In this document: piece by piece, positions 115-12,436 of the stretch | Layout: each line of letters starts with the position of its first letter | How positions within the stretch are numbered: the stretch's first letter is position 1 | Source: Alphaproteobacteria bacterium MarineAlpha12_Bin1 | GTDB taxonomy: Bacteria; Pseudomonadota; Alphaproteobacteria; UBA6615 | Direction: 5' to 3' | Length of the DNA: 54,539 nucleotides | Assembly: GCA_002937505.1 (NCBI GenBank) | Contig: PTJY01000006.1 | Coordinates: 1-54,539, forward strand | Notes under the pieces: generated by a model | The model's input: the letters and a program-made list of their open reading frames with translations, nothing else | Told to the model about the DNA's origin: nothing | Databases searched by the model: none | Position numbers and translations under genes: made by a program

Positions 115-215
115 TACACAAAACTTTATTAATGAGCCAATCTAAATAAAAGAAGCTCTAATTAACTTATAAGTTCTCATCAACTTCCATTTTTTTGATA
201 AAATCTGCTGGTTAT

Positions 216-2057
216 ATGTCTGACACTGAATCAACCTCGGCTGATAAACTTCGTAATATAGCTATAGTAGCCCATGTAGATCATGGAAAAACGACACTCG
301 TTGATAAATTGTTGAGACAGTCTGGAACTTTGGTTTCATATGGAGAGACTGAAGTACAAGAACGCGTCATGGATTCTAATGATATTGAAAGAGAGCGGGG
401 TATAACGATTCTTTCAAAGAATACAGCTATAGAATGGGATGGCTGGAACATTAATATTGTCGATACTCCCGGGCATGCTGATTTTGGAGGAGAGGTTGAA
501 CGTGTCTTATCTATGGTCGATTCGGTGCTGCTATTGGTCGATGCTGTAGAGGGCCCTATGCCTCAGACTACTTTTGTGACACGTAAAGCACTAGAAGCAG
601 GGTTAAACCCTGTGTTGGTTGTAAACAAAGTAGATAGAGACGGGGCAAGACCTGATTGGGCAGTAGATCAGACATTTGATCTGTTTGTTCAGCTGGGCGC
701 TACTGATGACCAGTTAGATTTTACAACAGTTTTTTCCTCAGCTACTGAAGGGTGGGCTTCATTAAATTCTCAGGAGCGTGGAGATAATATGGAGGTACTG
801 TTTAAAACAATTATAGAGCACGTAAAGGCTCCGTCTGTAGATCGTAATGGACCTTTTCGCTTGCAGGTTTCATCACTAGATTATTCTTCTTATGTGGGAG
901 TTATTGGGATTGGGCGAATAGAACGAGGTTCCGTGGCAAGAAACGATCCTGTTTCGATAATTTCAGTCGATGGAACCACCAGGCAAGGCCGTTTAATGCA
1001 AATATTAGGGTTTAGTGGCCTAAAAAGAATAGAAAAACAAAGGGCGTTGGCGGGGGATATAATTGCCTTCTCGGGAATAGATGAACTTAAGATTTCTGAC
1101 ACCGTGTGTAGCCCCGAGGCGATTGACCCTCTACCACCGCTTACTGTAGATCAGCCAACTATTTCTATGACATTTCAAGTAAATGACTCTCCTTTTGCTG
1201 GTAAGGAGGGAAAGTTTGTTACTAGTCGTAATTTGCGTGATCGCCTAATGGAAGAACTCTTGCATAATGTAGCTTTAAGGGTTGAGGAAATGGAATCTGC
1301 TGATCGATTTAAAGTATCAGGACGTGGTGAATTGCATCTTTCTATACTAGTGGAAAATATGAGAAGGGAAGGATACGAACTAGCAATTTCAAGACCCGAA
1401 GTAATAATAAAAGAAATTGATGGCAAGCAATGTGAGCCTTATGAATCTCTATCTGTAGACATTGACGAAGGACATCAGGGTCAAGTAATGGAGCTTTTTG
1501 GCGAACGCAGAGCTGAACTAAAGAACATGATTCCCGATGGAAGCGGAAGAGTGCGTCTAGATTATATTGTGCCCACTAGAGGTTTGATCGGAGTGCGATC
1601 CTCTTTTCTAACTCTGACTTCAGGAAGTGGCCTCATGTATCATGCGTTTGATCATTATGGGCCCCACTTTTCAGATGATTTAGCTCAACGCCATAGAGGG
1701 GTACTTGTTTCGACAGAAACTGGTATGGCTCGTGGCTACGCCTTGTTCAACTTGCAGGAAAGAGGACAGATGATGGTAGACCATGGGACTCAAGTTTATG
1801 AGGGTATGGTGGTTGGAATTAACAACCGAAATCAGGATCTGAATGTTAATCCTCTTAAAGGAAAACAGTTAACAAATATAAGAGCTTCAGGCACAGATGA
1901 AAATATTATACTCACTCCTCCTATAAAAGTTACTTTAGAGTTTGCACTTGAATTTATAGATGATGACGAATTGGTGGAAGTGACACCAGATTCAATAAGA
2001 GTGAGAAAGAAGTTTTTGAAGGAACATCAAAGAAAACGTGGGGGTCGTCCTAATTAG
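216..2057 (+). CDS. typA: Translational GTPase TypA/BipA
   Basis: Ribosome-associated GTPase of the elongation-factor family, known to help 50S assembly and growth under stress or cold. From the ATG at 216 it has 613 residues, the usual family length. The GTPase motifs are in order: AHVDHGKT (19-26), ERERGITI in switch I (58-65), DTPGHADF (83-90) and NKVD (137-140). EF-G-like domains and the TypA-specific C-terminal region follow. An in-frame TTG at 195 would add seven residues; the ATG is preferred because relatives begin shortly before the [12 protein letters not shown] segment. Neither start has a strong ribosome-binding site. It converges with the unknown gene downstream, and I see no clear terminator between them. 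Confidence 0.95.
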
Positions 2058-2088: not shown

Positions 2089-3012
2089 TTAACGTCTGAT
2101 AAACCAAGGAGGTAAGTCACTTTCCTCAACCCCAGAAAAGATACATTGCTTTTGTTCTTTAGCTAGGGTTTGATGATCAATTGCATCGTCCTTCTTGTGA
2201 GTTGCTGTACCTGAAGTGAAAGCAGGAGGGGGAGCATAGCAGGTGGAACAAATTCTTTTCTTTAACTTTAAAGCTGGCTCGCCTTTAATATCAGAGATGT
2301 AACTAATTGCGTCCTCTACATCACTTTGATCACCTTCAACTGCTAGTACCACTGATCCTTCTGATCCAGATACTCCTCCACCTCCAACATGAACTGCGGG
2401 GAGATTAAATAGAATCTTAAAGGCTTGTATTTCTGTTATTACCTTGGCGTTTATTAAGGGAAGCATTCCTATTTTTGTTCCATAAAAATAATCAACTCTT
2501 GAATGTCCTAATTCTGTACAAGCGGATTTAACTGAAGGTATCAACTTTTCAAGGCCAACGGGTACAATTAATGGAATGCCCATTCCGCAAATTTTACCAA
2601 AAGCAAAACCTATTGTTCCTGCTCCTGGGTGTGCGTTAAAAATTGCAGCGTTAAATTCAGGATCAACAGCGTTAGCGCCCTTAATGAACAAACATGTCTC
2701 GTCCCATCCATCCATAGTTTCATCCATTGTCGGAACAGGGGGAACCGGTTTTCCTTTAACTAACCTAAGTATCGCAGGTTTTTCTTCAGGTTGTGTTTGG
2801 CATAAAGTGCCATTAATTACTTGACCTGAGACGTAACGATCTCTTTCAGGGCAATATCCTAGAGCTTCTTCTGCTACGTAAACATTTGTTGATCCATGGG
2901 CTATGATCACTTGTGAATGTTCAAGTGCATATTGAACCTCAGGTAAGTTTGCTACTGCACGTCCAATTAATCTTTTTGATTCCCAAGGAGTTACTGAAAA
3001 TACGGCTCTCAT
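2089..3012 (-). CDS. Conserved protein of unknown function, paralogue A
   Basis: I do not recognise this 307-residue family. It has no signal peptide or membrane segment, so it looks cytoplasmic. Notable features are an AHGSTNVYVAEE segment (38-49), a very conserved core with KGANAVDPEFNAA (111-123) and PLIVPVGLEKLIPSVK (147-162), a glycine-rich HVGGGGVSGSEG loop (208-219), a CxxC pair (C255, C258) and a final segment ending LPPWFIRR. The glycine loop suggests a nucleotide or phosphate site and CxxC a metal or redox site, but both are inferences. The start has AGGA seven bases upstream. It lies 44 bases downstream of a close paralogue on the same strand, so the two are probably co-transcribed. 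Confidence 0.85.
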   Translation of the reverse strand: MRAVFSVTPWESKRLIGRAVANLPEVQYALEHSQVIIAHGSTNVYVAEEALGYCPERDRYVSGQVINGTLCQTQPEEKPAILRLVKGKPVPPVPTMDETMDGWDETCLFIKGANAVDPEFNAAIFNAHPGAGTIGFAFGKICGMGIPLIVPVGLEKLIPSVKSACTELGHSRVDYFYGTKIGMLPLINAKVITEIQAFKILFNLPAVHVGGGGVSGSEGSVVLAVEGDQSDVEDAISYISDIKGEPALKLKKRICSTCYAPPPAFTSGTATHKKDDAIDHQTLAKEQKQCIFSGVEESDLPPWFIRR

Positions 3013-3056: not shown

Positions 3057-3953
3057 CTATCTTCTTTTAAACCAATCAGGTAAGTCAGATTCTAGGGTTC
3101 CGCTGTAAATGCAAGTTTTTTTTGTCTTCTCTATTACCTGGGAGCCATCAGTAGTTCTAAGAGCTGGTGTAGAAGGAATGCAGGTCTGACATAATGCTTT
3201 TTTAAGATTTAAAGGGGGCTCTCCTTTAATAGTGTTAATTTCTTTTATGGCTATATCGACAGATTCTTTATCACCCTCCACAGACAAAACAACTGTTCCT
3301 TCAGATCCTGAAACTCCACCTCCGCCAACATGTATGGCGTTTAATCCAAATAGAATTTTGAATGCTTGGATTTCGGTAATTACCGTTGCATTTATCAGAG
3401 GTAACATTCCAATTTTCTGACCATTAAAATAATCGACACGTGCGTGTCCCAATTGTGTAGACGCTTGCTTTACTGAAGGAATGAGTTTTTCCAGTCCCAC
3501 CGGCACAATTAAAGGTATTCCCATTCCACAAATTTTACCAAAAGCAAAACCTATTGTTCCTGCTCCTGGGTGTGCATTAAAAATTGCAGCGTTAAACTCT
3601 GGATCAACAGCATTAGCTCCTTTTATAAAAACACATTTGTCGTCCCAACCTGCAAGGGTTTCATCCATTGTTGGAACTGGGGGAACGGGTCTACCTTTTA
3701 CTAATCTAAGTATTGGAGGTTTTTCACTCGATTCTGTTTGACATAACGTACCATTAATAACTTGACCGGAAGCGTATTTGTCTCGTTCAGGACAATAACC
3801 AAGCACCTCCTCTGCTACAAAAACGTTTGTTGACCCGTGGGCTATGACTAATTGAGCGTGAGATAGAGCATATTCTACTTCTGGAATTTTAGAGACGGCT
3901 CTCCCGATAAAGCGTTTAGACTCCCAAGGGTTCAATGAAAAAACAGCTCTCAT
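3057..3953 (-). CDS. Conserved protein of unknown function, paralogue B
   Basis: A 298-residue protein that aligns with the neighbouring paralogue over its whole length. By eye about three quarters of positions are identical in the first 250 residues; the tails diverge more. It keeps the AHGSTNVFVAEE segment, the KGANAVDPEFNAA core, the HVGGGGVSGSEG loop, the CxxC pair (CQTC) and the LPDWFKRR end. The start at 3953 is chosen because it aligns with the MRAVFS start of the other copy; an ATG two codons upstream (3959) is equally open. Retention of both diverged copies suggests two subunits of one complex or two related substrates. The function is unknown to me. Confidence 0.85.
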   Translation of the reverse strand: MRAVFSLNPWESKRFIGRAVSKIPEVEYALSHAQLVIAHGSTNVFVAEEVLGYCPERDKYASGQVINGTLCQTESSEKPPILRLVKGRPVPPVPTMDETLAGWDDKCVFIKGANAVDPEFNAAIFNAHPGAGTIGFAFGKICGMGIPLIVPVGLEKLIPSVKQASTQLGHARVDYFNGQKIGMLPLINATVITEIQAFKILFGLNAIHVGGGGVSGSEGTVVLSVEGDKESVDIAIKEINTIKGEPPLNLKKALCQTCIPSTPALRTTDGSQVIEKTKKTCIYSGTLESDLPDWFKRR

Positions 3954-3996
3954 GTACATTCTTTCTCGATTTATTCAACTGGGATAGTTTTAAAGG

Positions 3997-4929
3997 TTAG
4001 TTAACATTATTAAACGCAGATTTTAGTGCACTTATAGCATTTTGTACTGCAAGGTTTGCCTGGTCTGAAAAACTTCCAAAATTAAAAAAACCGTGCACTA
4101 CTCCTCTGTATAATTGATAATGCGCTGTGACTCCTGCCTTTTGTAGTTTAGACGCATATGCCCGTCCTTCATCCCTTAAAGGGTCTATATCGGCAGCGAT
4201 AATCAAAGCAGGTGCTAGGCCAGAAACATCTGTTGCATGTATCGGAGATGCTCTTGGGTCTAGGCGGTTATCTCCAGCGTGCATGCTTATTACCCATTGA
4301 AGAGTGCGATCGTCTAAAAACAGAGTTTCTTCAACACGACTGGTAGAAATTCCTGCCATGTCTATCATAGGATAAATGAGTATTTGTAAAATGGGTTGCG
4401 GTGTATTGTTTAGCTTGGCTTCTAGTGATACTGCCGCAGTTAGGTAACCTCCGCCACTGTCACCAGCAATAGCTATTCTAGAAGAATCACCTCCTATGCT
4501 GTCTGCATTCTCTTGTAACCAGCGCAAAGTAGCGTAGCAATCTTCCAGTGGGGCAGGGAAAGGATTTTCCGGCGCAAGGCGATAGTCAGGAACAACAACA
4601 ATACATTTAGCATCATCAGAAATGATTGTATTGGTTCCCTCGAAATCTTCTGGGGACATAAGACACATGCCTCCGCCATGAAAATATGCTAGTATTGGTA
4701 ATGGCCCCGTGGTTCCTTTAGGAACATATAGTTTACACCTTATATCACCAGACGGGCCAGGTATAAAAAGGTCTTCATTTCTTTCAAGTTCACGATTTTC
4801 TGGATTTACCATTCTCCATAATTGACTAAAGCCCTCTCTTGCAGCTTCCAATCCCATTTCAACCGGGTGAGGAGCTTCTTGGCTGGCTAATTCTTCAACA
4901 AACTTTTTAATTTGCGGATCAACGTACAT
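3997..4929 (-). CDS. Alpha/beta hydrolase, hormone-sensitive-lipase-type esterase
   Basis: A 310-residue carboxylesterase-like enzyme of the HSL family (alpha/beta hydrolase fold 3). The oxyanion motif HGGGM is at 84-88, the nucleophile S158 lies in GDSGGG (156-161), and the other triad candidates are D249 in DIDPLRDE and H279 in VVHGFF. There is no signal peptide, so it should act in the cytoplasm. The likely reaction is hydrolysis of short carboxylic esters; the substrate cannot be read from sequence. It lies 43 bases upstream of paralogue B on the same strand, so the three minus-strand genes at 2089-4929 probably form one transcript. The 175 bases before it are shared with a divergent gene. 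Confidence 0.9.
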   Translation of the reverse strand: MYVDPQIKKFVEELASQEAPHPVEMGLEAAREGFSQLWRMVNPENRELERNEDLFIPGPSGDIRCKLYVPKGTTGPLPILAYFHGGGMCLMSPEDFEGTNTIISDDAKCIVVVPDYRLAPENPFPAPLEDCYATLRWLQENADSIGGDSSRIAIAGDSGGGYLTAAVSLEAKLNNTPQPILQILIYPMIDMAGISTSRVEETLFLDDRTLQWVISMHAGDNRLDPRASPIHATDVSGLAPALIIAADIDPLRDEGRAYASKLQKAGVTAHYQLYRGVVHGFFNFGSFSDQANLAVQNAISALKSAFNNVN

Positions 4930-5044
4930 TGGTTCCCCCTTTATTAAGATTTATATTTATCTCGCTTCTTATTATTTTTTAGTCGAGAATTACCTACGCC
5001 CTCTTAATTAAATTTACATATGCCATGAAAGTATCTAATTAATA

Positions 5045-5073
5045 TTTAAAAGACACTCTCCAAACTCTAGAAT
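5045..5073 (+). promoter_or_regulatory. Candidate sigma-70-type promoter for the flavin reductase-like gene
   Basis: TTTAAA at 5045-5050 and TAGAAT at 5068-5073 are separated by 17 bases. This lies in the divergent gap between the esterase gene and the flavin reductase-like gene, about 30 bases before the start codon. AAGGAG at 5089-5094 is the ribosome-binding site. The match is moderate, and the region is AT-rich enough for chance matches. Confidence 0.35.
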
Positions 5074-5104
5074 AACATTTTTCTCTTTAAGGAGACAAAA
5101 ATCA

Positions 5105-5728
5105 ATGCCAGACTATTTAGAATTTAATCCTTCTGAGATAGATCGTCGAGAAGTTTATAGACTTCTAACAGGCTCTGTAGTGCCGAGGCCAATTGGATGG
5201 GCCTCAACTATTGATAAGAATGGTAATACTAATTTGGCTCCATTTAGTTTTTTTACCGTTGTTTGTGTTGTGCCGCCTATGATTTCTCTAACTATCGCAC
5301 GAAATCCAGATGGATCTGAAAAACATACTTTAAAGAATATTAAGGAGACCGGTGATTTTTGCTTTAATGTAGTTACAGAACCTGTTTGGCAAGAAATGGT
5401 AGACACTGGAAACGCCATTCCTGAAAAAGAGAGTGAGTTTGACGCCACTGGTTTAACTCAATTAGCTGCATTAAAAGTGAAATCACCCAGAGTAGGGGAA
5501 GTTCCTATACACTTTGAATGTAAACTACATAATGTTTTCGAGTTTGGTCCGAACAAACACCCATTAGTAATTGGAGAGGTAGTATACTTTCATGTTGATC
5601 CTTCATGTATGGTTAATGGGTACATAAACATGGAGAAACTTTTACCAATTGGCCGTCTAAATGGACACTTTTATTCTAAACTCGGCCAAATCCTTGAACG
5701 TGAGTTCGAGGATGGTCAGCCGAGATAG
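5105..5728 (+). CDS. Flavin reductase-like / flavoredoxin-type FMN-binding protein
   Basis: A 207-residue protein of the flavin reductase-like, FMN-binding split-barrel family. The diagnostic segment GSVVPRPIGWAST is at 23-35, followed by NLAPFSFFTVV, the usual flavin-contacting region. Members bind FMN or FAD and either supply reduced flavin to a monooxygenase or act as flavoredoxin-like electron carriers. No partner monooxygenase lies in this window, so its role in the catabolic block is open. AAGGAG ten bases before the ATG supports the start. It is transcribed away from the esterase gene and converges with the next hydrolase, leaving only 15 bases between their ends. Confidence 0.85.
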   Translation: MPDYLEFNPSEIDRREVYRLLTGSVVPRPIGWASTIDKNGNTNLAPFSFFTVVCVVPPMISLTIARNPDGSEKHTLKNIKETGDFCFNVVTEPVWQEMVDTGNAIPEKESEFDATGLTQLAALKVKSPRVGEVPIHFECKLHNVFEFGPNKHPLVIGEVVYFHVDPSCMVNGYINMEKLLPIGRLNGHFYSKLGQILEREFEDGQPR

Positions 5729-5743
5729 ACAATGAATAAATAT

Positions 5744-6982
5744 TTAATAGGGTGTAACTTCTTGTTGTCCCATAGTGTTAATTAAGACTTTTTCATTCGG
5801 GGCCTCTTTTCCGTTAACTCTATCTTGGCACCAGTCGGCTAGCATCGAATACCAATTTTCTCCAAAATATGCAGCGGATCCTCCCCCTATTGCATGTCTT
5901 TCACCTTCATAATAGACGAGCTTTTTATTAACACTAAGTTTACTAACGACGTCATCAGTGCACTCTATAGGACTAAGCTCCTCATCTTGTCCTGCTTGTA
6001 TTAGAACGGGGCTTTTTATGTCGCTTAATATAGGATCAAGTGAAAACTCGCTAATAAATTTATCAAATTCATCCTCATTATCATAATCACTCATAAACAT
6101 AAAACGAAGTTTAAATGATGGAGCCGCCATATTAAAAATAGTGTAGCAGCCAGGCTCATGACATACAAAAGTTACTGCGGTGCCAAGTACTTTGTCACCT
6201 AGTTGTGCAGCCGCTTGTAATCCAAAAAACGATCCAAAACTTAGGCCAAATATAACCAAGCGGTCTTTGTCAATTGCTGGATGTTGAATTAACCAATCGT
6301 AGACAGCCTGTGCGGCATCCATATGGTTATCTTTAGTTACATACACTCCTTTTACTGGGCATTCGCCTTGTCCGGGGCCATCATATACAAAGGAGGCCAT
6401 ACCTCTCTCTAGCATTTTATCCCCATACATGGAGCACATGATTTCCTTAGAACCATCCATGCCATCGATGCCAATAGCACAAGGAAACTTTTCTCCATCT
6501 TTCGGTGCGTGTGGTAATGCCAAATAGCCAGGCAAAACTCCATCTCCAAATGGAATTTCTACACGTTCGATTGGTCTAGGAGCATATTGTATATACTTGT
6601 CATAGCAGTCATTCATTTTTTGGTTGTATTCGATGTGTAAGTCGTTAGCTTCAAAGATTGGCCATCTTGCCGCTGAATAAAGAAGCGAGGCAATAAAATA
6701 GCTTTCGCGCGCAGACACTAATCTATCTTGCTCTTCGAAAGAGATGGCTTTTGCTTGACGCCTGCTTGCGGCAGCAGCAAACTCTCTATGCATATCGTTA
6801 AACTTTTTAGTGCGCATTCCTACTGTTCGAAAATCTCCTACAGCATCTGGTCCGCAGGGAAACATCGTGTATCCCAGTCGAGGTTGATCCCATTCCATCC
6901 CTACACTGGATATAATTGCGTCCAGTATCCATCTCTGTTCAGCCCAACGCTTCATTTTTTGTTCAGTAAAAGCTCTCATCAT
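5744..6982 (-). CDS. Alpha/beta hydrolase, 2,6-dihydropseudooxynicotine-hydrolase-like
   Basis: A 412-residue enzyme with a helical N-terminal cap of about 140 residues and a C-terminal alpha/beta hydrolase domain. Numbered from the chosen start, the nucleophile is S248 in GLSFGS (246-251), with D333 in AGQDEE and H363 in GERHA completing the likely triad. The cap arrangement and the YDGPGQGE segment resemble 2,6-dihydropseudooxynicotine hydrolase, a C-C bond hydrolase of nicotine breakdown, and FrsA-like esterases. The ATG at 6982 is chosen because GGAGAG lies eight bases upstream; an in-frame ATG at 7060 would add 26 residues but has no ribosome-binding site. It is divergent from the NicX-like gene, and C-C hydrolysis would fit a ring-degradation pathway. 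The exact substrate is unknown. Confidence 0.82.
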   Translation of the reverse strand: MMRAFTEQKMKRWAEQRWILDAIISSVGMEWDQPRLGYTMFPCGPDAVGDFRTVGMRTKKFNDMHREFAAAASRRQAKAISFEEQDRLVSARESYFIASLLYSAARWPIFEANDLHIEYNQKMNDCYDKYIQYAPRPIERVEIPFGDGVLPGYLALPHAPKDGEKFPCAIGIDGMDGSKEIMCSMYGDKMLERGMASFVYDGPGQGECPVKGVYVTKDNHMDAAQAVYDWLIQHPAIDKDRLVIFGLSFGSFFGLQAAAQLGDKVLGTAVTFVCHEPGCYTIFNMAAPSFKLRFMFMSDYDNEDEFDKFISEFSLDPILSDIKSPVLIQAGQDEELSPIECTDDVVSKLSVNKKLVYYEGERHAIGGGSAAYFGENWYSMLADWCQDRVNGKEAPNEKVLINTMGQQEVTPY

Positions 6983-7161
6983 GATGTTATCTCTCCGGCT
7001 ATCCATTATTGGTTGTATTGTTAATTCTTTTAACAAAGCACATGAGTGTTTTGTTGTCATTTATAAATGACTATATATTTTTTTAACAACTGTGTATTAG
7101 GTAATATGAAGTTTACTGTTATCATTATGTCTACTACTTCATCGTTATTTAGGAGATAAAA

Positions 7162-8244
7162 ATGCGCGTTTCGGCAGCAGTTCGACATCAGGAGATTAAT
7201 CCAGCCAAACTCACAGGATTATTCTTAAAACAGTTTACTATGTCGAAAGTTTCTAAAAATGAAACCATAGCTCTTATGAGCGATATAACCACTCGACCTG
7301 AGTACGTTCAGGCTGCATTCGCTGCGTCAGATGAATTGGGTGCAAATGCTTATGAGTTAAAAGTAAATATGGTTCCTTCGTGGACCAAAGTAGGTGTAGA
7401 TACAATAGGTGAAACTAAAGGCATAAAAGAGGCATTAATATCAGCAGATATAGTGGTAGCACTTCATATCCCTTTGTTTACAAGTTGGCTTAAGGAAGTA
7501 ATGGATACTGGTACTAGGTTTTTGATGATCATCGATGCTCCCGATGAGTTAGAGACTCTTTTGGCGCCAAAAGGTCTTAAAGAGGCGGTTTTACATGCGC
7601 ACCAACGCTTGTCAGAAACATTAAAGGTTAGAGTTACTAGTGATTCCGGAACGGATTTAACATATGATTGTGGGGAGTATCCAGTTATGAGCCAGTGGGG
7701 ATACTCTGATGAGCCCGGACACTTTGATCATTGGGGAGTTGGACACACTCATACATTTCCAAATGAACTTTCTGCGAACGGGACCGTGGTGTTTTCTCCA
7801 GGTGATATTGTAGTGCTTCCTTTTTGTCGTTACATACAAGACGAAGTTCGATTAGATATACAAGATGGTTTTATTCGTAGAATAGATGGTGGATTTGATG
7901 CCAAATTGATGACTGATTGGCTAGATGATAACAAACTTTCTGATGATGATTTAGACCCGTATGCCGTGTCTCATTTAGGTTGGGGGCTAAACCCGCAGGC
8001 TCGCTGGTATAATATAGCATTAAATGGCGACGAGCCAGAGAGATCTCACGCTGCTGCTCGGGCATTTCCTGGAAATTTTTTATTCTCAACTGGCCCAAAC
8101 ACTCAGGGAGGGGGTAATAGAAACACCAAAGGTCATTATGATGTTCCGATGCGTGATTGTAGTGTAGTGCTAGATAATGATTTGATCATCGAAAATGGAC
8201 GATTGGTCGACGAATCAATGATTGTTGAAAGGGAAGCTAGATAA
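7162..8244 (+). CDS. NicX-like 2,5-dihydroxypyridine 5,6-dioxygenase family protein
   Basis: A 360-residue protein matching the family of NicX, the non-haem iron dioxygenase that opens 2,5-dihydroxypyridine to N-formylmaleamate in nicotinate breakdown. The fold is related to M29 aminopeptidases. Shared features recalled from NicX are a YSDEPGHFDHW segment (181-191), SHLGWGLNPQARW (270-282) and GNFLFSTGPNT (304-314). H271, H325 and D327 fall where NicX has its iron ligands H265, H318 and D320. AGGAG lies upstream of the ATG. The stop codon directly abuts the ATG of the next hydrolase, so the two are probably translated together. An oxygenase acting on another hydroxylated ring is possible. Confidence 0.82.
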   Translation: MRVSAAVRHQEINPAKLTGLFLKQFTMSKVSKNETIALMSDITTRPEYVQAAFAASDELGANAYELKVNMVPSWTKVGVDTIGETKGIKEALISADIVVALHIPLFTSWLKEVMDTGTRFLMIIDAPDELETLLAPKGLKEAVLHAHQRLSETLKVRVTSDSGTDLTYDCGEYPVMSQWGYSDEPGHFDHWGVGHTHTFPNELSANGTVVFSPGDIVVLPFCRYIQDEVRLDIQDGFIRRIDGGFDAKLMTDWLDDNKLSDDDLDPYAVSHLGWGLNPQARWYNIALNGDEPERSHAAARAFPGNFLFSTGPNTQGGGNRNTKGHYDVPMRDCSVVLDNDLIIENGRLVDESMIVEREAR

Positions 8245-9075
8245 ATGACTTTAAGAAAAATAAACACCTACCCTGAGCAGGAACCATTTTCCGATATAGG
8301 TAAAATATATAATGTTGAAGCTCAGAAACTTAGCGCTGGCATAGAAGGTGAAAATTTTTCTTATGGTGATGATACCTATCAAGAAGTTGCGGTTTTTCCC
8401 TCACCTAATCCAAATGGAAATATTGTTGCGTTCATGCATGGTGGAGGCTGGGTAAATGGATATAAGGAATGGGTTGCATTTATGGCTCCGGCCCTGAATC
8501 AATTAGGAATTACATTTGTCAGCATAGGTTATCGTTTAGCCCCAAAAGTAATGTGGCCTGTAGGAGTTAAAGACATTGCTAAAGCGCTTAAATGGATTAA
8601 AGATAATATTAATGATCACGGTGGTGACTCGGCTCGCTTGTTTATAGGAGGGCATTCAGCTGGAGGACATTATGCCTCTTGGTTGGCTGTAAGAGATGAT
8701 TGGCAGGAGTCAGTTGGATTGGCTAAAGAATTTATTCGTGGCGCATTGCCAGTTTCTGGTGTTTATGATTTTACGCCAGGAAATGGGATGGAGATGAAGC
8801 CAAGGTTTCTAGGTGATTCCAAAGTAAATGAAATTGATGCTAGCCCATTACACACTATTAAAAGGACACCGCCTTTCTTTATTACATGGGGAGATAGAGA
8901 CTTGCCTCCCTTGATACCTCAGGCAGAAAAGATGACGCAGGCCCTTCTTGATTGCGGAGGAAAAGTCGAAACCCTCATTTTGTCCGAATGTGATCATGCA
9001 GAAGCTTCTTACGAATGCGGAAAGTCTAATGGGCAGTGGGTGCCTAAATTAGCGAAGTGGATTGATTCCAGTTAG
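8245..9075 (+). CDS. Alpha/beta hydrolase, formamidase-like (kynurenine formamidase type)
   Basis: A 276-residue hydrolase with HGGGW at 65-69, the nucleophile S138 in GHSAGG (136-141), D217 in TWGDRD and H251 in ECDHAEA. This layout is typical of kynurenine formamidase-like enzymes, which remove formyl groups from N-formyl amides or cleave small esters. It starts one base after the NicX-like stop codon. NicX chemistry produces an N-formyl amide, so a deformylase here would be the logical next step, by analogy with NicD, although it is not the same subfamily. The pathway role is inferred; the fold and catalytic residues are seen directly. Confidence 0.85.
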   Translation: MTLRKINTYPEQEPFSDIGKIYNVEAQKLSAGIEGENFSYGDDTYQEVAVFPSPNPNGNIVAFMHGGGWVNGYKEWVAFMAPALNQLGITFVSIGYRLAPKVMWPVGVKDIAKALKWIKDNINDHGGDSARLFIGGHSAGGHYASWLAVRDDWQESVGLAKEFIRGALPVSGVYDFTPGNGMEMKPRFLGDSKVNEIDASPLHTIKRTPPFFITWGDRDLPPLIPQAEKMTQALLDCGGKVETLILSECDHAEASYECGKSNGQWVPKLAKWIDSS

Positions 9076-9082
9076 GTTACTT

Positions 9083-9664
9083 CTAATTGTCCACGCCCGC
9101 ATCAAACTTAATTCCTATTTCATTCATTTGTTTTACTGTGGCTGCTCCGAACTGTTTTGCTATAGATTCACCTAAGCTTGGTGCAAAAGCCACTTTGTCA
9201 AATTCATCGCCTTCTGGAGTTTGAATAACTACGAATAGGTAACCAATATCATCAGAGATGTTTGTGAAATTACGACTAACTCCAGCTGGAACTGAAATAA
9301 AATCTAGGGGTTCTAGTATAGTGCTGTTCTCTCCGTTATCACCCCAGGTGATATCAAATTTTCCTTTAACACAGAAAAAGTTCTCTATCGCCCTTTCGTG
9401 TGCATGCAATCCAGGATTGTCACCAGGTGGGCATTCGGCAAGAGAGATTGTTATGCCTGGTGCTCCCTTGACAGGGGCAATATTATTTCGACCGGACCAG
9501 CCATCTGGCGACATGACAGGGTAGACGCTTTTTGCAGATACCGCTTCCATTGCAGCTGATGGAATCCCCTTTGCATCATTCTGGGTTTGTTTATAAGGCC
9601 TCAACTCACTAAACTTAGCTGTTCTAACCTTCATTTCTTCAGGTGATACTTCAATTGTTTTCAT
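9083..9664 (-). CDS. Cupin-domain protein with altered second motif
   Basis: A 193-residue protein with one cupin barrel at about 70-150. Motif 1 is intact, with H87, H89 and E94 in place. Motif 2 (126-135) reads PAGVSRNFTN, so Arg131 replaces the usual fourth metal-binding histidine. Relatives include small dioxygenases, isomerases and binding proteins for sugars or aromatic compounds, so catalysis cannot be assigned. It converges with the formamidase-like gene, leaving seven bases between stops. It lies 60 bases downstream of the two-repeat orphan gene on the same strand and may share its transcript. The three remaining ligands could still hold a metal; a non-catalytic binding role is the alternative. 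Confidence 0.82.
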   Translation of the reverse strand: MKTIEVSPEEMKVRTAKFSELRPYKQTQNDAKGIPSAAMEAVSAKSVYPVMSPDGWSGRNNIAPVKGAPGITISLAECPPGDNPGLHAHERAIENFFCVKGKFDITWGDNGENSTILEPLDFISVPAGVSRNFTNISDDIGYLFVVIQTPEGDEFDKVAFAPSLGESIAKQFGAATVKQMNEIGIKFDAGVDN

Positions 9665-9724
9665 CTTAGAATGTCTCCAATAGATTCTTATCCACTTGCT
9701 AAATTTCGATATTTAAAAAAACAG

Positions 9725-10384
9725 TTAGTCTGTAGGGATCAAATTAGGCATTATACTGTTAGCGATATCAAGTAAATAGTTGGCTGCAGTTTCAGACCGG
9801 CTTAATAAATCATCTCTGGTGCATGCTAGGTTTGTAAGCCATGTGAGATGGCCAAATACATTTCCGTCTCCCAACGATGCCCAAATATCTTCCTGATCTA
9901 AATCTTCGTTATTCAAATCGCATAATCTCATTGCAAATGGGGGAGGGGCTAGATTAATTATCCAAGGTCCATCATCAGTTATTTCATTCTCTGCATCGTG
10001 CATAACGCCAATTATAAAACCTAATGGCACATCATTTATTTGAATATCTGCGGATGAAGGATTCATATTATCTCGATTAAGATTTAACCTATTAGAAACG
10101 TCTGAGTTCTCTATAGAATTTATTGCCTCATTAACCAGTCCGGCTATTACTCTAGGATCAGAGGGTTGGGGTTCAAGAAATATTAAATTACCCAACGCCA
10201 AGCTATTATCGTTGCTAAGAGGAAAGTAAATATCGCTCATTTCACCATTTGGGATCTCTTCTGTTGGACGATGTATTACCCTCATGGCAAATGTTGGGTC
10301 TTCGATATGGACTACCCAAACCTCTTCCCCATCGTTTGAGAAGTCATTCCATCCAAATAACCGGCCTATTATAAAATTAGACAT
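9725..10384 (-). CDS. Orphan protein with two internal repeats, function unknown
   Basis: I do not recognise this 219-residue acidic protein. It is an internal duplication: residues 4-91 and 123-211 align. Both begin with FIIG, continue through a WVVHIEDPTFAMR-type segment (23-35) matched by WIINLAPPPFAMR (141-153), pass a hydrophobic stretch, and end in a helix closing with NSI. The link (92-122) is rich in Asn, Asp and Ser. There is no signal peptide, membrane segment or cysteine cluster, so a cytoplasmic binding or scaffold role is possible but unproven. It lies just upstream of the cupin gene on the same strand and is divergent from the dehydrogenase gene. Confidence 0.75.
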   Translation of the reverse strand: MSNFIIGRLFGWNDFSNDGEEVWVVHIEDPTFAMRVIHRPTEEIPNGEMSDIYFPLSNDNSLALGNLIFLEPQPSDPRVIAGLVNEAINSIENSDVSNRLNLNRDNMNPSSADIQINDVPLGFIIGVMHDAENEITDDGPWIINLAPPPFAMRLCDLNNEDLDQEDIWASLGDGNVFGHLTWLTNLACTRDDLLSRSETAANYLLDIANSIMPNLIPTD

Positions 10385-11551: not shown

Positions 11552-11566
11552 CGGAGCTTAGTCAGA
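11543..11566. terminator. Hairpin spanning the stops of two convergent genes
   Basis: A perfect nine-base stem (11543-11551 with 11558-11566) encloses a six-base loop. The left arm ends in the stop codon of the dehydrogenase gene and the right arm begins with that of the fumarylacetoacetate-hydrolase-family gene. Neither side has a long T run, so intrinsic termination would be weak; pausing or 3'-end protection is as likely. Confidence 0.45.
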
Positions 11567-12436
11567 TTTAATGGTATTCTTTAAAGTACCAATTTTAGTA
11601 ATTTCAACCTCAATTATATCACCCTCTTTTAACCATTGGGGAGGAACCTTTGCATGCCCTACACCGCTGGGAGTACCTGTTACGATAACGTCACCTGGAT
11701 AAATTTCTGTGTATGTTGAAATGTAACTAATAAGTTGCGGGATACTGAAGATCAAATCTGATATTTTTTCTTTCTGCACGGTTAGGCCGTTTAAGCGTGT
11801 TTCCAAAATGAGTTCACTTGGATTAACAATTTCATCAGTTGTTATTAGACACGGACCAAATGAACCAGATTGATAAAAGTTTTTTCCTGGTAGGTATTGT
11901 GAAGAATGTCTTTGCCAGTCCCTCACAGACCCTTCATTGTAACAACTGTATCCAGCAACAAAGTCATAAGCTTTCTCTTCTTTTATTCTTCTTCCCTGTT
12001 TTCCAATTATTACTGCCAGCTCACCCTCGTAATCGAGGAATGCAGACTCTCTTGGTAAAAGTATTGGTTGGGCATGCCCTACATGGCTTTCGGGCCAGCG
12101 TGGAAATAAAATTGGTTTTGTCGGAATTGGATTTCCTGTTTCTTCCGCGTGTTTTTTATAATTTAGGCCAACACAGATGATTTTATGTGGGTTCGTTATA
12201 GGAGGAAGTAACTGGATATCTTTATAAGGAAAATCGGATGTTTTTCCACCTCCACCTCCAAAGCCCGTCCTTAGATAATCATTAACTCTATTTTTGTTTT
12301 TTGTGTCAGATCCTATATAATCCTTGAGGGTTGGTAACGAGTTTATAAACTCCGCTCCTAGATCTATGACCCCGCCGTCCGAGGCATATGTTCCCCAGCT
12401 TTCCCTGTTTGCGTGACTAAAACTTATTAATTTCAT
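11558..12436 (-). CDS. Fumarylacetoacetate hydrolase family protein
   Basis: A 292-residue enzyme of the FAH superfamily, which includes fumarylpyruvate hydrolases, acylpyruvases and 2-keto-4-pentenoate hydratases that act late in aromatic-ring breakdown. An N-terminal domain (about 1-75) precedes the catalytic fold. The metal ligands are E137 and E139 in DYEGELA, but the third position, usually Asp, aligns with E168 in CYNEGSVRDWQ (165-175). The late VTGTPSGVG motif is intact. It converges with the dehydrogenase gene and is divergent from the extradiol-type gene, with 161 bases between. Substrate specificity cannot be read from sequence; a ring-cleavage product is likely from context. Confidence 0.9.
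   Translation of the reverse strand: MKLISFSHANRESWGTYASDGGVIDLGAEFINSLPTLKDYIGSDTKNKNRVNDYLRTGFGGGGGKTSDFPYKDIQLLPPITNPHKIICVGLNYKKHAEETGNPIPTKPILFPRWPESHVGHAQPILLPRESAFLDYEGELAVIIGKQGRRIKEEKAYDFVAGYSCYNEGSVRDWQRHSSQYLPGKNFYQSGSFGPCLITTDEIVNPSELILETRLNGLTVQKEKISDLIFSIPQLISYISTYTEIYPGDVIVTGTPSGVGHAKVPPQWLKEGDIIEVEITKIGTLKNTIKSD

Follow-up and report, generated by a model that had tools for sequence, protein, structure and literature searches.

A NicX-type dioxygenase subfamily with a tandem formamidase-like hydrolase: a candidate N-heteroaromatic ring-opening pair in an alphaproteobacterial genome

Few enzymes that open N-heteroaromatic rings are known. The 2,5-dihydroxypyridine (DHP) 5,6-dioxygenase NicX of Pseudomonas putida KT2440 (PDB 7cn3) holds its iron with H265, S302, H318 and D320, D320 being positioned by R293, while E177 contacts N1 and O1 of the substrate, H189 contacts O1 and H105 hydrogen-bonds the substrate (PMC7910607). 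A dioxygenase followed in series by an alpha/beta-hydrolase deformylase is described both for NicX and NicD and for KpiC and KpiB, the latter in the 4-hydroxypyridine pathway of Arthrobacter IN13 (PMC7910607, PMC7356986). In the Kpi pathway, KpiC is an amidohydrolase-family dioxygenase unrelated to NicX that opens 3,4-dihydroxypyridine, KpiB, 21% like NicD, probably removes the formyl group, and the proposed catalyst of the last step is a fumarylacetoacetate-hydrolase (FAH)-family enzyme (PMC7356986). Here we describe a NicX-like gene and the hydrolase gene directly behind it in a stretch of 54,539 nucleotides (the window) from Alphaproteobacteria bacterium MarineAlpha12_Bin1 (assembly GCA_002937505.1, contig PTJY01000006.1).

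The window corresponds to contig 9 of a genome of 2.34 Mb, whose nearest named relatives are alphaproteobacterial metagenome-assembled genomes, many of them marine judging by isolate names. A preliminary description of the sequence had set out a divergent hydrolase gene (5744-7060, minus strand), the NicX-like gene (7162-8244, plus strand) and a tandem hydrolase gene (8245-9075, plus strand), and all three open reading frames lie where it placed them. The sequence features presented below indicate that the latter two probably encode a dioxygenase and a deformylase for a hydroxylated N-heteroaromatic compound, which is probably not plain DHP. NicX-type ring opening followed by deformylation is known. 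As far as our literature searches reach, there appears to be no description of this subfamily, of the change in its pocket or of its partner; we found no description of the subfamily in open-licence papers, judged by title or start of abstract.

Iron site, substrate pocket and phylogeny of the NicX-like protein

Residues 12-349 of the NicX-like protein aligned with residues 3-342 of NicX, its sole real PDB match (36% identity over the whole length); the remaining 16 matches listed were antibody chains with E values of 0.0022 or worse. H271, H325 and D327, which had been singled out as three likely iron ligands, aligned with NicX H265, H318 and D320. S302, which completes the published ligand set, and R293 were also kept in the alignment, as S309 and R300. 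We counted these positions in an alignment of 55 segments from 50 related loci (L002-L051). In NicX numbering, H265, H318, D320 and R293 were each kept in 54 segments and S302 in 53, and the iron-site misses came from L050, which is truncated, and L051, which aligned poorly. By its whole-length homology, ligands and Arg293, the product belongs to the NicX superfamily of mononuclear Fe(II) dioxygenases and has an intact predicted iron site.

The substrate pocket showed both shared and altered positions. At H189 the window protein has histidine, as do 47 of the 55 segments in all, and seven have glutamine. At E177 it has glutamine (Q178), found in 51 segments, while three have valine and one (L051) a gap. 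Phenylalanine likewise occupies the H105 position (F106 in the window) in 51 segments, with histidine in three and a gap in L051; the segments combining valine at 177 with histidine at 105 are divergent second copies in L027, L029 and L042. Glutamine stands at E308 in 50 segments and in the window protein.

For comparison, rows were added from plasmid records, giving a NicX/NdpE-type group of nine: NicX and L052-L059. Six of these (L052, L053, L055, L057, L058 and L059) have a NicD-type hydrolase and an isochorismatase-type amidase nearby, with a racemase-type or maleate isomerase as well in five; we took the label 'N-carbamoylsarcosine amidohydrolase' to mean the isochorismatase type. L054 is annotated as a DHP dioxygenase and has a hydrolase and an amidase, and L056 (Peribacillus) is labeled leucyl aminopeptidase and has only a more distant NicD-like neighbor (30-33%). 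All nine rows keep E177, and the E177Q change thus separates the window subfamily from them. Phenylalanine at position 105 occurs in seven of the nine, NdpE among them, so that H105F is uninformative and was discarded as proof of a new substrate.

A tree of 67 rows separated the 50 of the window subfamily from all others by a branch supported at 100/100. The nine NicX/NdpE-type rows likewise stood together on one side of a branch once rows belonging to no group were set aside. The subfamily is also present in two named cultured species, Neopusillimonas maritima (17-4A, L038) and Eoetvoesiella caeni (DSM 25520, L039). Two loci carry two tandem subfamily genes (L032:1165-3357 and L045:3010-5286; 55% and 59-63% to the window protein), and the second copies in L027, L029 and L042 are a further NicX-type protein, 34-35% identical to that of the window.

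The tandem hydrolase and conservation of the gene pair

The TAA stop of the NicX-like gene occupies 8242-8244 and the ATG of the hydrolase gene begins at 8245, leaving zero intergenic bases. The pair had been called fused in tandem; the tandem order and the start one base after the stop are correct, but these are two separate genes. An AGGAG motif lies a few bases upstream of the NicX-like gene start at 7162.

In an alignment of 21 hydrolase sequences (the window and 20 loci), H65, G66, G67, G68, W69, S138, D219 and H251 were invariant, as was the segment G72-W76. The HGGxW oxyanion motif and Ser-Asp-His combination of kynurenine formamidase type were present in all 21, and D219 is likely the catalytic acid. 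We take the HGGxW motif to be tied to formamidases and partly common to esterases. The predicted structure (predicted local distance difference test, pLDDT, 91.5) matched Drosophila kynurenine formamidase (4e15) at rank 12, with a template modeling (TM) score of 0.77 and 20% identity. The two proteins share this fold, a serine hydrolase assignment and an HGG-type oxyanion motif, which presumably belongs to kynurenine formamidase, but the oxygenase partner in the window is NicX-like and not a tryptophan dioxygenase. Esterases matched the model as well as or better than 4e15, whose Z score of 25.2 lies within the range of 24.6-28.0 spanned by the best 50 rows, mostly esterases. Because the fold fails to separate formamidases from esterases, a formamidase or deformylase function is suggested by gene order. 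The earlier term 'formamidase-like' therefore holds for the Abhydrolase_3/BD-FAE family and the model match, while as a statement of function it depends on the neighboring dioxygenase gene.

NicD and NdpF, the N-formylmaleamate deformylases (ndp cluster, PMC5343071), resemble the tandem hydrolase in being alpha/beta hydrolases encoded beside a ring-opening dioxygenase, but the window enzyme is of the HGGGW hormone-sensitive-lipase (HSL)/formamidase type. A blastp comparison with seven NicD-type neighbors, which are 45-69% alike among themselves, gave no match up to an E value of 1, and no row labeled NicD was among the fold matches listed for the model. NicD membership is ruled out by the blastp result, in agreement with the preliminary description, which had placed the hydrolase outside the NicD subfamily.

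Conservation of the pair, which that description had suggested surveying, was examined in 24 genomes of the window's family, its own included, and in the 50 wider loci. Because the two sets partly overlap, the counts from them are not independent. Contig ends truncate many of the loci, gene calling of neighbors was crude in GC-rich loci, and neighbors bear Pfam and NCBIfam labels that were determined on one or two members of each cluster and extended to the remaining members by similarity. Of the 24 family genomes, 18 have the oxygenase at no less than 75% identity (in G022 as a fragment where the contig ends), and each of these 18 has the hydrolase gene directly 3' of it on the same strand. 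Among the other genomes, G004 has two oxygenase copies of 46-49%, one with a hydrolase about 0.6 kb downstream, G012 has only a 37% relative, and four had no match.

In the wider set, a hydrolase homologue was found near the oxygenase in 26 of the 50 loci. The two genes are directly adjacent in 13 (L002-L011, L018, L031 and L039), within 0.6 kb of each other in L019 and L041, and divergent in L038. In the other 10 (L013, L015, L016, L021, L033, L034, L035, L040, L045 and L048), molybdenum-hydroxylase genes lie between the pair. Those in L040 code for a xanthine-dehydrogenase-family hydroxylase, with FAD, [2Fe-2S] and molybdopterin subunits, and for a CoxG-like protein; tblastn detected the same hydroxylase subunits in the other nine loci, with CoxG not found in L013. 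The subunits fall below the NCBIfam curated cut-offs, so only the broad family can be named. Xanthine-dehydrogenase-family molybdenum hydroxylases hydroxylate pyridine rings. In the sister clade, the place of the window's flavin reductase gene is taken in four loci (L007, L008, L009 and L031) by a luciferase-type gene (PF00296, 1.2e-48 in L009; the others by clustering), which hints at a flavin-dependent hydroxylation step.

The preliminary description had noted the lack of a hydroxylase. This is true of 5744-9075, but not of the related loci with molybdenum-hydroxylase genes inside the pair, nor of the source genome, which holds 11 molybdenum-hydroxylase large subunits and 12 FAD_binding_3 matches, 10 of them above cut-off. 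Eight of the 11 molybdenum-hydroxylase loci were compared with the partners found elsewhere: the best was 31% identical to the L040-type partner, none being close, and there was a 50% relative of the CoxL-type partner.

Candidate reaction and alternative readings

From these data we infer a sequence of ring opening, an N-formyl product and deformylation, in that order. The mononuclear Fe(II) dioxygenase would use O2 to cleave a hydroxylated N-heteroaromatic ring beside its nitrogen atom, leaving an N-formyl amide, and the tandem hydrolase, with its predicted Ser-Asp-His triad and HGGGW oxyanion loop, would release the formyl group as formate. The ring is probably of the 5-hydroxy-2-pyridone type, judging by the retained iron site and, in the window, the histidine at the position of NicX H189. 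It is also probably substituted or otherwise patterned, since the E177 contact is glutamine across the subfamily and the partners of the nic pathway are missing. More broadly, we give about even weight to a separate branch of N-heteroaromatic breakdown, in which an E177-to-Q NicX subfamily cleaves a ring other than plain DHP, receives its substrate from molybdenum hydroxylases or flavin monooxygenases, and is followed by a non-NicD formamidase-like hydrolase that finishes the sequence; under the same proposal its hosts would be Pseudomonadota, many of them marine by record names, and some Rokubacteria. A conserved subfamily of this kind would point to an unrecognized ring substrate.

Several observations weigh against this reading. 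At the search threshold, no such hydrolase was found in 24 of the 50 loci, some of which are cut by contig ends; two of the 24, L020 and L025, have 30-32% matches to the window's hydrolase. Eleven loci (L017, L024, L027-L030, L036, L037, L042, L043 and L046) have 10 kb of downstream sequence and no hydrolase. In eight of the 11 a gentisate-dioxygenase-like cupin is encoded instead, and three of those eight have a salicylyl-CoA-5-hydroxylase-type flavoenzyme as well. Some members of the subfamily may thus use another ring or yield a product that needs no deformylase, and a single product for the whole subfamily is disfavored. Glutamine at the E177 position also occurs in Thioclava and Neorhizobium rows, which lie on the NicX/NdpE side of the tree (support there 92/89, with a long-branch warning from the tool), and is thus not unique to the window subfamily; it is found as well in a Rhodococcus relative and in L082, a 49% relative within the window's family. 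The proposed identity of the ring rests on one predicted contact residue and gene context, and the modeled fold of the putative deformylase is tied with esterases.

An ordinary DHP 5,6-dioxygenase, with NicD replaced by an unrelated hydrolase and the other nic steps located elsewhere or replaced, is unlikely but is the strongest of the alternatives. It would account for the whole-length similarity to NicX and the full iron site. The phenylalanine at position 105 does not exclude DHP, since NdpE and six other NicX/NdpE-type rows share it, and glutamine at 177 could still pair with the N-H and C=O of a lactam. Three isochorismatase-family genes are present in the source genome, two of them 29-30% like NicF. 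Against it stand the E177 of all nine NicX/NdpE-type rows versus the glutamine of the window subfamily, the separate branch, and the missing partners. The maleate isomerase NicE was not found in the source genome with a NicE protein query that did match the control plasmid record; this query replaced an earlier search with PF17645, which matched nowhere, controls included. No nic genes adjoin the NicX-like gene, and matches to NicD, NicE and NicF were weak and confined to one, two and one of the 50 loci, respectively. Lacking both the Glu177 contact and linkage to NicD, NicE and NicF, the window gene differs from NicX proper. These results agree with the earlier statement that the pathway is not that of nic. 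The accompanying phrase, a different pathway built from similar chemistry, is upheld as to the intact iron site, the non-NicD tandem hydrolase and the non-nic setting, but the formamidase step that it implies has gene order as its basis.

Slightly less probable still is that the subfamily cleaves another kind of ring (an indole, a pyrrole, a gentisate-like carbocycle or an aryl-CoA) and that the pairing reflects another hydrolysis, for example of an ester or lactone. The gentisate-dioxygenase-like cupin occurs in 14 of the 50 loci in all, several of which also have a second, CoxL-like molybdenum hydroxylase or the salicylyl-CoA-5-hydroxylase-type flavoenzyme (at least 57% in L027, L029, L042, L043 and L044); by their family names, cupin and flavoenzyme indicate 2,5-dihydroxybenzoate chemistry, and the hydrolase fold is as near to esterases as to kynurenine formamidase. 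However, the cupin and the formamidase-like hydrolase (L040-type query) occur together in only two of the 50 loci (L038 and L041), so that most loci that have the gene pair of the window lack the cupin. The H189 position also argues against such rings, being histidine in most segments although glutamine in seven, and to our knowledge all characterized NicX relatives cleave DHP.

An M29-family aminopeptidase with an unrelated neighbor is very improbable. Its support comes from database labels: many NicX relatives in plasmid records, some beside NicD/E/F-type genes (e.g. L059), are called leucyl aminopeptidase or peptidase M29. The window protein matched no Pfam model at 0.001, including the M29 model that we take Pfam to hold, whereas the NicX iron ligands are complete. 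An aminopeptidase-labeled Haladaptatus protein has E and A at the positions of NicX H265 and S302 and sits on a very long branch. As the sole M29-type row it is a weak stand-in, being labeled an aminopeptidase and not a proven peptidase, and its only PDB match is also NicX. On the missing Pfam match, the ligands and the tree placement relative to this one stand-in, we rejected the peptidase assignment, and the NicX-like identity given in the preliminary description withstood this check. Many public 'leucyl aminopeptidase' labels thus sit on relatives of a ring-cleaving dioxygenase.

Neighboring genes and the syntenic block

The divergent gene upstream had been likened to 2,6-dihydropseudooxynicotine hydrolase and counted as a C-C hydrolase of the module. 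Its product did match the 2,6-dihydroxypseudooxynicotine hydrolase 2jbw (E 3.2e-12), but AntI (6hxa, 2e-14) and Ayg1-type enzymes (1.3e-12 and 1.6e-12; 8qd1 is of this type) matched at least as well, and these remote relatives indicate no preference for the nicotine enzyme. The nucleophile serine and the histidine aligned with AntI, the acid position was not clear in the alignment, and the structure model (pLDDT 54) was unusable. Alignments to 11 of 14 orthologues began only at residue 22-27 of the open reading frame, which makes M27 (base 6982) the probable true start and would leave about 180 bases between the two divergent starts. Promoter-like matches in 5000-9800 were no better than those in shuffled sequence.

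This gene adjoins the oxygenase gene in 15 of the 18 family genomes, the window's own included; in the three others, the G022 contig begins inside the oxygenase gene, and G005 and G020 lack it within the 1.5 kb examined. In the wider set, close orthologues were present in 11 of 50 loci, all of the window's clade, and a 24% match in L019 is a remote relative. We therefore rejected it as a member of the conserved core and regard it as a clade-specific neighbor. The orthologue in the closest relative (L002:8583-9896, minus strand) has an in-frame stop, from assembly error or decay, and eight proteins of the FrsA/AntI-like hydrolase family are encoded in the source genome.

Table 1. Features of the NicX-like locus (positions in the window)
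Feature	Position	Strand	Evidence
NicX-like mononuclear Fe(II) ring-cleaving dioxygenase (predicted), distinct subfamily, 360 aa	7162..8244	+	PDB 7cn3 NicX, E 6.7e-67; iron ligands kept; own branch 100/100
Predicted iron-ligand codons H271 (7972-7974), S309 (8086-8088), H325 (8134-8136), D327 (8140-8142)	7972..8142	+	alignment with NicX H265, S302, H318, D320
Q178 codon, at NicX E177 position (contact to substrate N1 and O1)	7693..7695	+	Q in 51/55 segments
HSL/kynurenine-formamidase-type alpha/beta hydrolase, 276 aa, proposed deformylase of ring-opening product	8245..9075	+	Abhydrolase_3 1.1e-24; BD-FAE 9.4e-21
Divergent FrsA-like alpha/beta hydrolase (AntI / Ayg1 / DHPON-hydrolase group), likely start M27	5744..6982; listed reading frame to 7060	-	PDB matches; FrsA-like 2.7e-13; orthologues 79-96%
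Presumed shared regulatory region between divergent genes	6983..7161	.	gene starts
Flavin reductase domain protein, conserved neighbor	5105..5728	+	PF01613 2e-23
Hormone-sensitive-lipase-type hydrolase, conserved neighbor	3997..4929	-	PF07859 7.1e-63; 65-96% in 11 loci
FAH-family protein, same syntenic block, candidate later step	11558..12436	-	NCBIfam relatives, all below cut-offs; 60-95% homologues in 8/11 family loci

Further genes surround the pair (Table 1). The conserved block includes an FAH-family gene, and the step logic of the Kpi pathway is the same as that proposed here. A gene at 9725-10384 (minus strand) encodes a 219 aa protein outside any Pfam family, with conserved counterparts of 51-92% in 8 of 11 family loci. 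Two genes on the minus strand, 2089-3012 and 3057-3959, are tandem paralogues of about 300 aa with homologues in L002-L005; neither product had a Pfam or NCBIfam match, and the best PDB match of the former (E 0.39) was not meaningful. At the edge of the block, a translation-GTPase gene (195-2057, plus strand), presumably typA/bipA, accompanied by a tRNA-Glu gene at 39-114, flanks it in 7 of 11 family loci, and the module therefore seems to occupy a fixed, vertically inherited place.

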